DNA from: Candidatus Borrarchaeota archaeon
GTDB lineage: Archaea; Asgardarchaeota; Sifarchaeia; Borrarchaeales; Borrarchaeaceae
Direction of reading: 5' to 3'
NCBI GenBank assembly: GCA_016840645.1
Contig: JAEORY010000305.1
Coordinates: 1-5,491, forward strand
DNA: 5,491 bases
Shown here: positions 1 through 4,317 of the stretch, piece by piece
Layout: every line of letters begins with the position of its first letter
How positions within the stretch are numbered: position 1 is the first letter of the stretch
Position numbers and translations under genes: made by a program
Notes under the pieces: generated by a model
What the model was told of the DNA's origin: nothing
The model's input: the letters and a program-made list of their open reading frames with translations, nothing else
Databases searched by the model: none

Positions 1-374
1 GCCGTAGTGAGGAGTGGGGCATTGATCCCCAGAAGATCGGGATCCTCGGTTTCTCGGCTGGAGGTATGTTAAGCCTTGGTATTTTACTTGATACCGTACA
101 CCAAAGCAGGCCTGATTTTGCAGGAGTGATCTATACTCCATGGTCTGGAGGTCAAGTTCCTGAAGATGCCCCGCCACTTTTTATCGCTGTGGCAAGTGAC
201 GATGCTATAGCATCGGCAGGAAGTATTAAAATATACAAGGCTTGGAAGGCAGCCGGAGCGGAAGTTGAATTACATCTCTATTCCAAAGGTGGCCATGGTT
301 TTGGAATGCAGAAATCAGGATTGCCTTCCGAAAAGTGGATTGAGCGCTTCTGGGATTGGCTTGAAATCCAATGA
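1..374 (+). CDS. alpha/beta-hydrolase (esterase-like), C-terminal part
   Basis: The reading frame enters the window open (first full codon at position 3) and ends with TGA at 372-374; the N-terminal half lies outside. The visible 123 residues show the C-terminal half of an alpha/beta-hydrolase. GFSAGG (codons 48-65) is the nucleophile elbow with the catalytic Ser at 54-56. VASDD (near 189-203) supplies the likely catalytic Asp at the end of a beta strand. GGHGFG has the catalytic His at 294-296. The tail SEKWIERFWDWL is typical of the last helix in the acetyl-esterase / BD-FAE group, which in Bacteroidota often removes acetyl or feruloyl groups from plant polysaccharides. The family is clear from the triad and its spacing; the substrate is inferred only. 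ATG at 66 is an internal Met after the catalytic Ser and is not the start. No partner gene follows: the next element is a non-coding repeat. Confidence 0.87.
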   Translation, partial: RSEEWGIDPQKIGILGFSAGGMLSLGILLDTVHQSRPDFAGVIYTPWSGGQVPEDAPPLFIAVASDDAIASAGSIKIYKAWKAAGAEVELHLYSKGGHGFGMQKSGLPSEKWIERFWDWLEIQ

Positions 375-419
375 TTACTTGCTGTGCGAGTATGCTAGCC
401 ATAAAGTCGTAGTTGTCCT

Positions 420-437
420 ATAATGTACTTGGATTAT
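420..437. other. ATAAT-8-ATTAT dyad in repeat A
   Basis: An inverted pair ATAAT (420-424) and ATTAT (433-437) is separated by an 8-bp spacer (GTACTTGG). Arms and spacer are all identical in repeat copy B at 1886-1903. Short inverted arms around a 6-8 bp spacer are the usual layout of a tyrosine-recombinase core site, but an AT-rich dyad this short can also be a protein-binding site or chance. Function is inference. Confidence 0.4.
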
Positions 438-552
438 GTTTATATAGCTTTGATCCTAAAGCAACATTTATTTTTCAGTTGCTAATTCAGTGAATCTATC
501 GTCCATTCTTAGAAGGGGAGAGGTTCTTGGTTTTGATGAAGAATTCGAGAAT

Positions 553-591
553 ACACTCTTTTTGCGTTGTGCAGCAACGTGAAATGGGTGT
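553..591. other. conserved 39-nt hairpin in repeat A
   Basis: The arms ACACTCTTTTTGCGTTG (553-569) and CAACGTGAAATGGGTGT (575-591) pair over 17 positions with a single T:T mismatch and a few G:T wobbles, around a 5-nt loop (TGCAG). Both stem arms are identical in copy B and only one loop base differs (T to C). No T-tract follows on either strand, so a Rho-independent terminator is unlikely. It may act as folded single-stranded DNA or as RNA. Confidence 0.75.
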
Positions 592-704
592 TACCGTATT
601 AATCACTTCAACTGAAAAGTCTTTCATAGAACCAATAGCTGATTGAATGGCCTCTAATCCCATTAATCAAAAACTAAATTCAATTTTAACACAAACAATT
701 ACAG

Positions 705-1739
705 ATGAGTGGCACACCAATGCCTCACAATGACATTCTATTTCAGAGGATCCGAGACATACTTGATAATGCAAGATACAAAGTCTATCGTACGGCCAAC
801 ACAGAAATGCTCCGAGCATACTGGAATGTTGGAAGGGAGATCGTCGTACAAGAGCAAAAGGGCCAGGACCGAGCCAAGTATGGGAGTGCTTTGCTGGAAG
901 AATTGGCAAAAAGGCTAACTGAACTGTACGGGAGGAGTTTCAGCAGTCGACATCTTCGATATATGCGCCAGTTTTACAGGGAGTTCCCAAAATGGAACGC
1001 GGTGCGTTCCGAATTGTCCTGGACCCATTACCGGATGTTATTGAAGGTTGAAAAAGAAAATGCCCGAAATTTTTATATGCAAGAAGCCATTACTGGAAAC
1101 TGGAGTACTCGACAATTGGAAAGGCAAATCAACTCATTGTATTTCGATAGGTTATTAATTAGCAATGACAAAAAAGGAATCATGCTGGATATTGATACCG
1201 AGAAAGAGCTTATGCACCCTGAAAATATCATTAAGGATCCTTTCGTGCTGGAGTTCCTGAATGTGAATGAGAGCAAAAGGTTGGCTGAATCCGATTTAGA
1301 AACTGCATTAATTGATAAACTGCAACATTTCATACTTGAGCTGGGGAACGGATTTTCTTTTGTGAGTCGTCAATACAGGATTACAACGGGCAATGAACAC
1401 TACTATATTGACCTGGTATTCTACAATTATATCCTTAAATGCTTCTTAATCATTGATCTTAAACCAGATAAACTTACACACAAAGACATTGGGCAAATGG
1501 ATTTTTACGTGCGGTTTTTTGAAGATCAGTTGAAACAACCAGGAGATAATCCTTCAATAGGATTGATTTTATGCACGGAGAAGAATAGAACCATCGTGAA
1601 GTATAGCTTGCTTAATGAGAGCAAGCAGATCTTTGCTTCAAGGTATCAACTGTATCTTCCAACAATAGAACAATTAGAACAGGAGATACAAAGAGAGAGG
1701 GATCAGATCAAGCTGGAACAAAAACTTTGTAGAGAATAA
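705..1739 (+). CDS. DUF1016 / YhcG-type PDDEXK nuclease domain protein
   Basis: A complete 344-residue protein, close to the roughly 370 residues usual for the YhcG/DUF1016 family. Residues about 8-145 form the helical, winged-helix-like DUF1016 N-terminal domain (YWNVGREI at 39-46, YGRSFSSRHLRYMRQFY at 75-91, LSWTHYRMLL at 104-113). Residues about 175-325 form the PDDEXK nuclease fold: LETALI with E199, YYIDLVFYN with D236, IIDLK with D251 and K253, then GQMDFY at 263-268. All expected catalytic positions are present, so the protein is probably an active, soluble DNA endonuclease. The tail (322-344) is charged and may form a coiled coil. Family members are often linked to type I restriction or other defence loci, but no hsd genes are visible here. 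ATG 705 is the first start after an in-frame TAA at 687; it has no Shine-Dalgarno sequence, and ATG 720 is an alternative. The gene lies alone between two long direct repeats. G+C falls from about 50% in the N-terminal part to about 36% in the C-terminal part. Confidence 0.93.
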   Translation: MSGTPMPHNDILFQRIRDILDNARYKVYRTANTEMLRAYWNVGREIVVQEQKGQDRAKYGSALLEELAKRLTELYGRSFSSRHLRYMRQFYREFPKWNAVRSELSWTHYRMLLKVEKENARNFYMQEAITGNWSTRQLERQINSLYFDRLLISNDKKGIMLDIDTEKELMHPENIIKDPFVLEFLNVNESKRLAESDLETALIDKLQHFILELGNGFSFVSRQYRITTGNEHYYIDLVFYNYILKCFLIIDLKPDKLTHKDIGQMDFYVRFFEDQLKQPGDNPSIGLILCTEKNRTIVKYSLLNESKQIFASRYQLYLPTIEQLEQEIQRERDQIKLEQKLCRE

Positions 1740-1876
1740 AAACCTTGCGGGCTGGCGATGCATGATCCAAAGCGGTGGTAGCGTACAGGCCTTAGAGCGA
1801 GGGCTGAGCGGCTACTTAACATAATGCCTGATTATAGTGACAGAGCAGGATCCACAGAACAAAGCCGGAAAGTTGC
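1740..1876. other. GC-richer non-coding stretch between nuclease gene and repeat B
   Basis: This segment has no ORF and its first two-thirds are visibly richer in G+C than the flanks. Its start (CTTGC at 1745) and end (AGCC..AAAGT at 1863-1873) resemble the short stretch 379-408 that separates the esterase stop from repeat A, so copy B may carry about 100 extra bases relative to copy A. It holds a variant dyad ATAAT-gcctg-ATTAT (1821-1835). It could be an RNA or part of a larger repeat unit; I recognise no named family. Confidence 0.4.
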
Positions 1877-1885
1877 AGTTGTCCT

Positions 1886-1903
1886 ATAATGTACTTGGAT
1901 TAT
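1886..1903. other. ATAAT-8-ATTAT dyad in repeat B
   Basis: Identical to the dyad at 420-437: ATAAT (1886-1890), spacer GTACTTGG, ATTAT (1899-1903). It lies in the most conserved part of the element. Candidate recombinase or regulator binding site, by inference only. Confidence 0.4.
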
Positions 1904-2019
1904 GTTAATATAGCTTCGATCCTAAGGCAATATCTTTCAATCCGGTTTATGCTCTATGATACTCTCGTCTGAACCTGGAAGGGGAGGGGTTCAAAGGTTT
2001 TGACTAAGGATTCGTGGAT

Positions 2020-2058
2020 ACACTCTTTTTGCGTTGCGCAGCAACGTGAAATGGGTGT
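2020..2058. other. conserved 39-nt hairpin in repeat B
   Basis: Same 17-position stem as at 553-591 (arms 2020-2036 and 2042-2058) with loop CGCAG. Bases around the hairpin have changed between copies while the stem has not, which suggests the structure is maintained. An isolated copy of the first 11 bases of the left arm (ACACTCTTTTT) follows at 2067-2077 without a matching right arm. Confidence 0.75.
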
Positions 2059-2415
2059 TAACAATTACACTCTTTTTACCTTTGTTCTGTATGTTTAGGA
2101 GCATATCACTTTTAAGTCTGCCATCATTATATTATTGATAATTAGGAGCTTGTCAGGTATTTGAAAAGGCTCATATTCAATAGATTATCTCGGTCTCAAT
2201 AATAAGGCTAGAAATTCTTGACTTGAATTGATACATGGGGTAATTTTAATATTGGAATTCAACTCAGGGGTTTCCCTGTTTTCTTCTTACTACTGTATTA
2301 CCGCAATTCGTCAATCAGGAAATAGTATTGTTCGATACTTTTCCGTCATTTAATATAAAAGGATTAAGTCTTGAGTAGTCATCTGTTTTTTATTCTCAGT
2401 GATACGATTTATTCT

Positions 2416-2823: not shown

Positions 2824-2831
2824 TAAATTTG
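2824..2831 (+). promoter_or_regulatory. possible Bacteroidota -7 promoter element (TAAATTTG)
   Basis: TAAATTTG matches the TAnnTTTG -7 consensus of Bacteroidota housekeeping promoters. It lies 12 bp before ATG 2844, which would leave a very short leader, and I do not see a clear TTTG -33 element at the usual distance. It is a candidate only; the AT-rich region could hold the true promoter further upstream. Confidence 0.3.
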
Positions 2832-2843
2832 AAAAACAAAGCC

Positions 2844-3572
2844 ATGAACAGACAATTATTAATTATCTTTCTTTTATGCTATGGATGTACAATCCTATCA
2901 GCACAGACAAGCACTGAATGGGGCTATCCCATTCGACCTGGAAGTCCAGAGTGGGAAAGAGCAACAAGTCTTGAGGAAAGACTACGCTTCTACAATATCC
3001 CAGATAATCTTCTTAACACAATGACCACTGAGGATCTTGTTAAAACTTGTCTAAATTATCCTGAGTTAAGGATGATTTTCACTCGTAACAGTCTTCAGAA
3101 AGGATATGAGTTCTTAAAAAGAGAATTTAATGGTTTTCGAGAACTTGAAAAGAGGACTGATGCTGGAGAGCATTTAATGATTGCTTACTCAGATAAAGAA
3201 CATGACGATGTTTCAAAAATTACCGATGGAGTTGGTAGAGGAAGATTTATGCAAAGTATCCTCAATATTGAGCTTATCCTTTCTCAAGAACCTATTATTA
3301 ATAACATGGCTAAAGCCGAACAATTTGCATTAAAAAAGCAGGCAATTAAAAGCTATGAAAATGTTGTAAGACTAGAAAAATATTATGGCACTTTCCCATT
3401 AGAAATGCCCGCTTTAATAATGGGTAGATTATTGATAATTGAGAAAGAGACAAATCTTGCTCTGAATAGCCAAATTGATAATGAGATAATAGCTTTTCTT
3501 AGTAATCCAGGGGGCTTCACAACTGATGTCTGGTCAAGGGTATATAATATTGCAAAAAATGATTTTAAGTAG
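2844..3572 (+). CDS. exported protein of unknown function, first of a paralogous pair
   Basis: 242 residues. ATG 2844 is preferred over an in-frame TTG at 2829 because it gives a normal signal peptide: a short charged N-terminus (MNRQ), a hydrophobic core (LLIIFLLCYGCTIL) and a cleavage region SAQ at 19-21, typical of signal peptidase I exports in Bacteroidota. The mature protein appears mostly helical. Its core (residues about 50-115) carries TTEDL at 61-65, NYP at 71-73, then NSLQKGY, KREFNG, ELEKRTD and a Leu/Tyr end. The next gene shares this pattern (TT..L, L.YP, NS..GY, KR...G, ELE.RTD.G, L...Y). I do not recognise a named domain and infer no enzyme activity. The gene overlaps nothing upstream, and its stop lies 7 bp before the next start, so the two are very probably cotranscribed. 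Being exported beside a lipoprotein paralogue and a secreted putative enzyme, it may be an accessory, inhibitor or binding protein. Confidence 0.85.
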   Translation: MNRQLLIIFLLCYGCTILSAQTSTEWGYPIRPGSPEWERATSLEERLRFYNIPDNLLNTMTTEDLVKTCLNYPELRMIFTRNSLQKGYEFLKREFNGFRELEKRTDAGEHLMIAYSDKEHDDVSKITDGVGRGRFMQSILNIELILSQEPIINNMAKAEQFALKKQAIKSYENVVRLEKYYGTFPLEMPALIMGRLLIIEKETNLALNSQIDNEIIAFLSNPGGFTTDVWSRVYNIAKNDFK

Positions 3573-3579
3573 CTGTAAA

Positions 3580-4317
3580 ATGCGAATTCATATCCTGTTG
3601 ATTCTGCTCTTATTAATAGTTATGGGCTGTGGTAAAAGGAACCCCTGTAGTGATCTGCCTGATTGCGTATATCAATATCCTGATCTACCTGAGGAACATA
3701 CAATGACTAGTGAGGAGGTAGACAAATATGCTGATCTCCCTAAAGAAGTTGCAGAGTGTCTTACAACGGACTGTCTGATAGAAAGTATTTTGACTTATCC
3801 TTACATAAGTTTGATATTTGCAGGAGCGAATTCTCAAGCCGGTTATGATTTAGTAAAACGACAATACCGGGGATTATCTGAGTTGGAATCAAGAACTGAC
3901 AGAGGGAGTTATTTATTGCAAAAGTATCAATCCAGGGATCCCATAGGTTTTGATAAAACGTGGGATAATCTTGAAATTGGGCGGTACATGGCTACAGGTG
4001 TATTTATTGAGGTAATTCAAAGCCAATATATAAATCTTCAGAATCTTGATTCTATAAACTTTAATCATCTATTCAAAAGAAGCTTAGAAGTATACGATCT
4101 CGAAAAGACAGAAATTGAGCACTTTGGTTATTTTGGGCTAACGTATAGTACAGCAACTTTAGCAAGAATGATGCTAATAAGCAATTATGAACCTTTTGTT
4201 TCACTGTACAACACAAATGATTATGTCAAATACATTACTGAAGAATACGGACCTTCCGATGCTTCATTAATTGAATTGATTTATGAGATAGCAATAGAAT
4301 ATTCAAAAAATATATAA
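3580..4317 (+). CDS. lipoprotein of unknown function, paralogue of preceding gene
   Basis: 245 residues from ATG 3580, chosen because it gives a textbook lipoprotein signal: MRIH, a Leu/Ile-rich core, then lipobox VMGC with the lipidated Cys at residue 17. ATG 3559 and GTG 3526 are in frame but add residues before the signal and overlap the preceding gene. The protein is expected to be anchored in the inner or outer membrane. Residues 51-116 align with residues 50-115 of the preceding protein, keeping LTTDCL, LTYP, NSQAGY, VKRQYRG, ELESRTDRG and the following Leu/Tyr. After this core the two diverge, though both keep a helical second half (here LEIGRYMATGVF and TATLARMMLI against GVGRGRFMQSI and PALIMGRLLI). 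The short region after the lipid Cys is Cys- and Pro-rich (CGKRNPCSDLPDC). I recognise no named domain. The gene follows its paralogue by 7 bp and precedes the secreted putative enzyme by 10 bp. A membrane-anchored copy beside a soluble copy suggests related but separate locations. Confidence 0.87.
   Translation: MRIHILLILLLLIVMGCGKRNPCSDLPDCVYQYPDLPEEHTMTSEEVDKYADLPKEVAECLTTDCLIESILTYPYISLIFAGANSQAGYDLVKRQYRGLSELESRTDRGSYLLQKYQSRDPIGFDKTWDNLEIGRYMATGVFIEVIQSQYINLQNLDSINFNHLFKRSLEVYDLEKTEIEHFGYFGLTYSTATLARMMLISNYEPFVSLYNTNDYVKYITEEYGPSDASLIELIYEIAIEYSKNI

Follow-up and report, generated by a model that had tools for sequence, protein, structure and literature searches.

Genes and repeats of the window

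The window, meaning the whole stretch of 5,491 nucleotides analysed here, holds an alpha/beta hydrolase fragment, a first repeat copy, a YhcG gene, a second repeat copy and further open reading frames (ORFs), in this order (Table 1). The nuclease encoded at 705-1739 is a complete protein and a member of the YhcG family, as both the DUF1016_N and YhcG_C domains were found over their gathering scores (PF17761, 1.6e-44, and PF06250, 6.1e-59). This agrees with the initial annotation, which placed a single complete PDDEXK nuclease gene between the repeats; also its statement that no transposase or integrase is in view was borne out, none of the six window ORFs scanned matching such a family. Compared with the family PF06250/PF17761, nothing unusual was noticed in the protein, and the YhcG homology search gave at least 7999 scored candidates.

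The ORFs beyond the second repeat had no Pfam family except for one PKD-like domain; at 2829-4317, two neighbouring ORFs without a Pfam or NCBIfam match are followed by a PKD-domain protein. The 19 nt at 382-400, before the first repeat, resemble the end of the nucleotidyltransferase gene of the contig L001 described below (E 0.03), and they are perhaps a remnant of a lost cassette or a chance likeness.

Table 1. Features of the window, with strand and the score or method supporting them.
Feature	Position	Strand	Score or source
Alpha/beta hydrolase fragment, left neighbour, open-ended, 5' end outside the window	3..374	+	Pfam
Repeat copy 1, short form: Xer-type core and D side with terminal hairpin	397..595	+	
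Site A copy 1: XerC arm 412-423, 10-nt centre 424-433 (TGTACTTGGA), XerD-like arm 434-446	412..446	+	score 18.5
Terminal hairpin of copy 1	553..591	+	
YhcG/DUF1016 PDDEXK nuclease gene, proposed cassette	705..1739	+	Pfam; PADLOC candidate PDC-S02
Repeat copy 2, long form of about 325 bp: element C side, site A, D side with hairpin	1740..2062	+	
Candidate site B, second dif-like site, inverted, 7-nt centre	1814..1843	-	under the paired-arm scan cut-off
Site A copy 2: XerC arm 1878-1889, centre 1890-1899, XerD-like arm 1900-1912	1878..1912	+	score 19.5
Terminal hairpin of copy 2	2020..2058	+	

The repeats, originally placed at 411-593 and 1877-2060 in the same orientation, aligned with 151 identities in 188 columns (80.3%). 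Aligned locally with the remainder of the window, copy 1 scored 253, compared with at most 99 in 100 shuffles. The part common to both copies covers 397-595 and 1863-2062 (162 of 204 columns, 79.4%), and for this part the original ends were nearly right; copy 2 is longer, its long form of approximately 325 bp beginning at 1740 directly after the nuclease stop codon. The initial annotation had overlooked the long form, and also the dif-type core, the second, inverted site and the connection to chromosomal dif. In an nhmmer model built from sequences including both window copies, model positions 5-326 corresponded to 1740-2062 and positions 127-326 to copy 1. The upstream stretch of copy 2, from 1740 on, was also present in copies of other genomes. 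The window repeats are most conserved at the two ends and less so in the middle.

The plus strand folded better than shuffled sequences, with z -2.85 for the short and -3.37 for the long form; z was -0.41 for the minus strand. The consensus of the hairpin included two-sided changes in 5 of the 27 pairs. Despite the fold and the pair changes, a non-coding RNA or an omega-RNA-like element was set aside as the identity of the repeat, because the half-exchange described below accounts better for the layout; weak RNA-model matches opposite the hairpin strand were disregarded. The Rfam scan of the window gave three matches, all far under the gathering scores. No match was found with blastn against plasmids and phages, and two sequence patterns and the YhcG search found nothing in viral contigs.

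The core of the repeat

Site A of the window consists of the XerC arm and the 10-nt centre, followed by TTATGTTaATA, in which the start of the XerD arm is the same as in dif. Both the centre and the XerC arm are identical in the two copies, and the XerC arm, GTTGTCCTATAA, was present unchanged (12 of 12 positions) in dif of G299, in that of G316 and in the dif of G305, which is a hybrid. The most conserved stretch of the repeat is TTGTCCTATAA - TGTACTTGSA - TTATGTTAATATAGCTTTG. The centres were 9-10 nt long in site A, 7 nt in site B and 6 nt in chromosomal dif. The paired-arm scan detected 30 sites with a score of at least 18.5 in 330 kb of loci, which had been chosen for such sites, and none in one shuffled set.

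Judged by its sequence, the core of the repeat is a dif-type Xer site, dif being the site used in bacterial chromosome separation. The XerD arm of the candidate site B is similar in sequence to that of chromosomal dif, and exact in copy d of L001. Site B, which is inverted, and the hairpin at the end of the repeat are possibly accessory.

Copies and arrays in Bacteroidales

The search for the repeat elsewhere, suggested together with the cassette reading, showed that it recurs in other genomes with different genes between the copies. Since it does so, the repeat is neither restricted to this locus nor bound everywhere to the same gene. The exact 21-base hairpin pattern matched one contig, L001, in a collection of 84,980 species genomes. 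L001 is a Bacteroidales MAG contig with four repeat copies, all in one orientation, which separate a shortened YhcG gene (82% identity to the window YhcG over 184 residues), an FG-GAP/ASPIC gene, a HEPN-MNT pair, a two-gene operon without family match and a HepT-nucleotidyltransferase pair. The ends of this contig (1-39 and 6796-6834) are an identical 39 bp, and the nucleotidyltransferase-HepT pair is adjacent across the join. An excised circle was considered on account of these ends and left out of the evidence, because a short assembly loop would give the same picture.

Among 295 genomes in the order, six gave matches at E <= 0.001 in the DNA search; within the family, the covariance model detected the repeat at E <= 0.01 in 7 of 28 genomes, in G303 only at 0.0067. 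With stricter filters, the covariance model matched 5 of the 395 genomes of the class at E <= 1e-4, G001 itself among them. The site-A pattern run over the phylum matched 0 of 395 genomes, which says little about absence, because the known copies of G001 in the same set were missed, too.

Several arrays have the same kind of layout. The order was nadE, partial repeat, HEPN-MNT and repeat in L014; repeat, nucleotidyltransferase-HepT-like pair, repeat and ORF6N gene in L015; and repeat, HEPN-MNT, repeat and transposase in L016, where the HEPN-MNT pair is full length (tblastn) and the transposase was named by eye. Partial repeats surround a distant HEPN-MNT pair and DUF433/DUF5615 in L019. Counting also partial terminal copies, the copies within each array were in one orientation (window 2, L001 4, L014 2, L015 2, L016 2, L019 3, L043 3); two loci, L041 and L043, had weak matches on the opposite strand, with E values from 8.6e-4 upwards. 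The same HEPN-MNT cassette, with 77-88% identity to that of L001, lies beside the repeat in G001, G126, G008 and G310. The cargo of the arrays included HEPN-MNT, HepT, DUF433/DUF5615, YhcG and other genes, some cassettes carrying ordinary genes (FG-GAP/ASPIC, AraC-like, ABC transporter). The copies of L041 and L042 start at fragments of a YhcG reading frame, 40 residues long (85%) and 41 residues long (51%), respectively. In G008, nine repeat matches were distributed among five contigs, the copies on C52 and C74 having no contig link to dif. Many arrays end at contig breaks, as repeats commonly do, and binning errors are possible because the comparison genomes include MAGs.

Chromosomal dif of the clade

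Searches for dif-like sites, in the order and then in the family, yielded the form TTTGTCCTATAA - 6 nt - TTATGTTAAATAG, with one site per genome in most of the genomes having any. The chromosomal dif form TCCTATAA-NNNNNN-TTATGTTAAAT was present in 17 of the 28 family genomes at two mismatches or less, a few of these matches being probably due to chance. In a set of 393 genomes, 113 gave matches, which are for the most part due to the dif core. The dif lies beside a TPR gene adjoining gyrA in G008, G126, G310, G284, G151 and G305 (gyrA called by Pfam in G008 and by blastp in G126, G310, G284 and G151). When read by eye, a TPR-like gene adjoined 12 of the 17 dif loci, or 14 when two divergent ones were counted; the three loci without it may be chance matches.

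A true dif within two mismatches was not found in 5 of 14 genomes (G001, G297, G306, G303, G039); G001, one of these, has the richest array. Two genes of the XerC/D type were found in all nine genomes tested, one of them partial in G310, and in eight of the nine a gene exceeded the XerD cut-off.

In five loci (L084, L085, L083, L094, L098), the XerC side of dif includes one or two further inverted dif-like sites with centres of 7 and 11 nt. It is possible that these sites upstream of dif are accessory sites for chromosome dimer resolution in Bacteroidales. Two dif-like sites were present in G008 (L083, L046), one by gyrA-TPR and the other near a gyrA/parC-like gene and a RES/Xre pair; this could be a mixed bin. 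Predicted dif sites of 19 Bacteroidetes have already been published (PMC3025954).

Half-exchange at the XerC arm

The flanks of the XerC arm were compared at 37 sites, 20 of them non-dif and 17 dif; the C side was taken as the 70 nt 5' of the arm and the D side as the 60 nt 3' of it. Element C and element D sides were joined at seven sites, including window copy 2, and chromosomal C and chromosomal D sides at five clear dif sites (G126, G310, G298, G299, G308). A chromosomal C side was joined with an element D side at two sites, copy b of L001 (L1b) and copy b of L015 (L15b), and an element C side with a chromosomal D side at one, the dif of G305, which is on the same contig as gyrA and the TPR gene. 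The references, window copy 2 (w2), L15b and the dif of G310 (dif310), match themselves by construction. All four combinations were present, and they are the classes expected of attB, attP, attL and attR. The switch between the C and D sides lies inside or at the end of the common TATAA-T.

A clear C-side class was lacking at 11 of the 20 non-dif sites, window copy 1 included; its C side scored no higher than background when compared with the C side of either the element or the chromosome. These 11, namely window copy 1 (w1), L41, L42, L43 and the seven G-numbered variant sites, of which G039v was weakly chromosomal (z 7.7), do not enter the junction classes. Among the 17 dif, dif305 is the hybrid, and a further eleven were not counted with the five chromosomal/chromosomal sites: the D side was weak in dif008b, and in the other ten a C or D side was weak or of another kind. 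The D side in G515, G541 and G455 resembles that of the window in the core only. The junction of element C and dif D comes from one genome, G305.

The element C side in G305, next to dif, is split by an insert of approximately 2.2 kb (L140, 5875-8211), in which a reverse-transcriptase-like ORF was recognised by eye at 6519-8003. The insert is perhaps a group II intron.

Linkage of variant sites to dif

Seven genomes outside the family with the arrays had variant sites, the centre of which is 9-10 nt long. In four of the seven, dif was on the same contig, at a distance of 9.6 kb in G284, 10.6 kb in G515, 10.5 kb in G541 and 11.3 kb in G486, and in all four the variant site was on the same strand as dif and on its C side. 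These four thus have dif and a variant site in direct orientation at chromosomal dif, the arrangement of IMEX. The dif was on a different contig from the variant site in G455 and G151, and was not found in G039.

Between dif and the variant site, G284 has a cluster of cytosine methylase, Vsr, AAA and HATPase genes, and a 196-bp direct repeat (96%) is common to the two ends in this genome. An RND efflux operon (Pfam), the metal type of which was judged by eye, lies between the sites in G515, and its counterpart in G486 is 56% identical (blastp). The genes between the sites in G541 include the antiphage pair GapS4a/GapS4b. In G008, the order is dif, META-domain gene, HepT remnant, repeat and nadE, and nadE also borders the array of G126. 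Within about 4 kb or less of dif were PemK and HTH genes in G151, and a RES/Xre pair on the D side in G008 (C21).

Interpretation and alternative explanations

The repeats are probably recombination sites of a mobile cassette system which uses the host XerC/XerD and dif and has no recombinase of its own; the exchanged halves speak most strongly for this. The module would be a circle with one site of about 325 bp, made up of the C side, the XerC arm, the 9-10-nt centre, the XerD-like arm and the D side ending in the hairpin. Strand exchange at the boundary of the XerC arm and the centre would put the circle into chromosomal dif or into an existing array site, and repeated insertion would lead to arrays in direct orientation, whose cassettes hold a single gene or an operon, in many cases of toxin-antitoxin or defence function. 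In the window, exchange between the two copies of site A would yield a 1466-bp circle carrying YhcG and a single site. Where two array sites have the same centre, which is the case in the window, both XerC-side and XerD-side exchange would be possible; between circle and dif, an XerD-side exchange would probably not follow the first, because the centres differ from that of dif in length and sequence. We infer catalysis by the host Xer proteins, circular intermediates and the use of the cargo. The window itself would, by analogy, be such an array; its link to dif is likewise an analogy with the relatives.

The exchangeable cassette of the initial annotation stands in so far as the repeat occurs elsewhere with other genes between its copies. 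As to its mechanism, recombination between the 184-bp repeats would likely be site-specific at the XerC arm rather than plainly homologous, because halves were exchanged at the 12-bp XerC arm of a dif-type site.

A dispersed intergenic repeat, MITE- or ERIC-like, which spread alone and left the genes between its copies as bystanders, later shuffled by homologous recombination, is an unlikely explanation. The number of matches and contigs in G008 would suit it, as would the copies located between ordinary genes, named by eye as an AraC-like regulator, an ABC transporter and a WD40-like gene. However, such spread would not lead one to expect one orientation per array, the half-exchange at the dif XerC arm with its four junction classes, dif linkage in 4 of 4 same-contig cases, or repeat ends which do not pair together.

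It is quite improbable that the site is served, instead of by host XerC/D, by an unseen element-borne tyrosine recombinase or a phage relative with a copied dif. This would explain why the centre of 9-10 nt exceeds that of dif, and PMC5357621 names other Xer-like systems with longer centres (difSL 11, difH 6-10). However, the XerC arm is identical to that of the host dif, hybrids with host dif were found, and inspection of loci by eye revealed no recognisable recombinase between the sites, insertion-sequence transposases aside. Neither was an own recombinase, as considered for IMEX, recognised by eye among the ORFs read, a part of which was scanned against Pfam.

Returning to the recombination sites of a Xer-dependent cassette system, a broader reading seems possible, with the balance slightly against it: Bacteroidales could have an integrase-free, integron-like platform in which dif and the chromosome-separation machinery gather toxin-antitoxin and phage-defence cassettes, maintain their order and swap them through strand exchange on the XerC side, the dif region being a growing defence array. 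If true, dif modules are not confined to Acinetobacter, and a family with true integrons also has a second cassette system, which needs no integrase. New defence genes could then be sought between the site copies and also beside gyrA-TPR-dif, and the question would be raised whether host XerC/D can handle a 10-nt centre. No paper on dif cassette arrays in Bacteroidota was found in a title-level literature search, which lacked most subscription papers and bioRxiv.

Comparison with known systems

On the best reading, the nearest kinds of element are the Acinetobacter dif modules and IMEX. In Acinetobacter, dif (pdif) modules and the islands of dif modules on the chromosome (PMC13141974, PMC12907356) have 28-bp sites, a 6-bp spacer and alternating inverted C/D and D/C sites, mostly on plasmids. 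Similarly, the arrays consist of small gene modules, often toxin-antitoxin, between Xer sites, in rows which share sites; toxin-antitoxin or other accessory cargo was found here, and the XerC arm is as in the host dif of the relatives G299 and G316 and in the hybrid of G305. XerC/D recombination takes place in the Acinetobacter modules, whereas here it is proposed from sequence. In contrast to those modules, site A has a centre of 9-10 nt and site B one of 7 nt instead of a 6-bp spacer, and the A sites are direct rather than alternately inverted, the long form adding the inverted site B. Also the conserved element of about 325 bp, the dif hybrids and the occurrence in Bacteroidales distinguish the arrays.

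The examples of IMEX in PMC5357621 are CTXphi, VGJphi, TLCphi and the gonococcal island. Strand exchange at VGJphi attP and cer is catalysed by XerC, and the proposed XerC-side exchange resembles these events (PMC5357621). Gokushovirus prophages at dif have an intact dif at one end and at the other a variant with a changed spacer and XerD arm (PMC7062461). The integration at dif, with an intact dif at one end, is common to IMEX, gokushoviruses and the present system. However, IMEX and gokushoviruses are single phages or islands, whereas here short cassettes of non-phage genes accumulate in arrays.

Like integrons, in which toxin-antitoxin cargo is known, the present system has cassette arrays with one site per cassette; unlike them, no IntI was recognised beside the arrays read, and the site is not attC-like. 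The repeats are very unlikely to be unusual attC sites of an integron cassette array with IntI elsewhere in the genome: the gene-repeat-gene-repeat layout is integron-like, and integron integrases exceeded the curated cut-off in 5 of 8 array-family genomes tested compared with 0 of 14 controls, but pairs joining the first and last 30 nt numbered 0 in window copy 2 and 8-18 in six attC pieces, and the repeat was in none of eight IntI neighbourhoods, two of them with partial intI (lowest E 3.5). On account of the unpaired ends of window copy 2 and the eight repeat-free IntI neighbourhoods, attC, the first idea, was rejected as the identity of the repeat. Also the real attC array beside IntI in G306 (L147) has sites of about 95 bp and longer, whose likeness to the repeat is limited to matches of at most 16 nt. 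This locus (L147, G306:C481, 4415-10690) is a true integron, intI followed by the attC array, and IntI is also present in G001, G297, G303 and G008.
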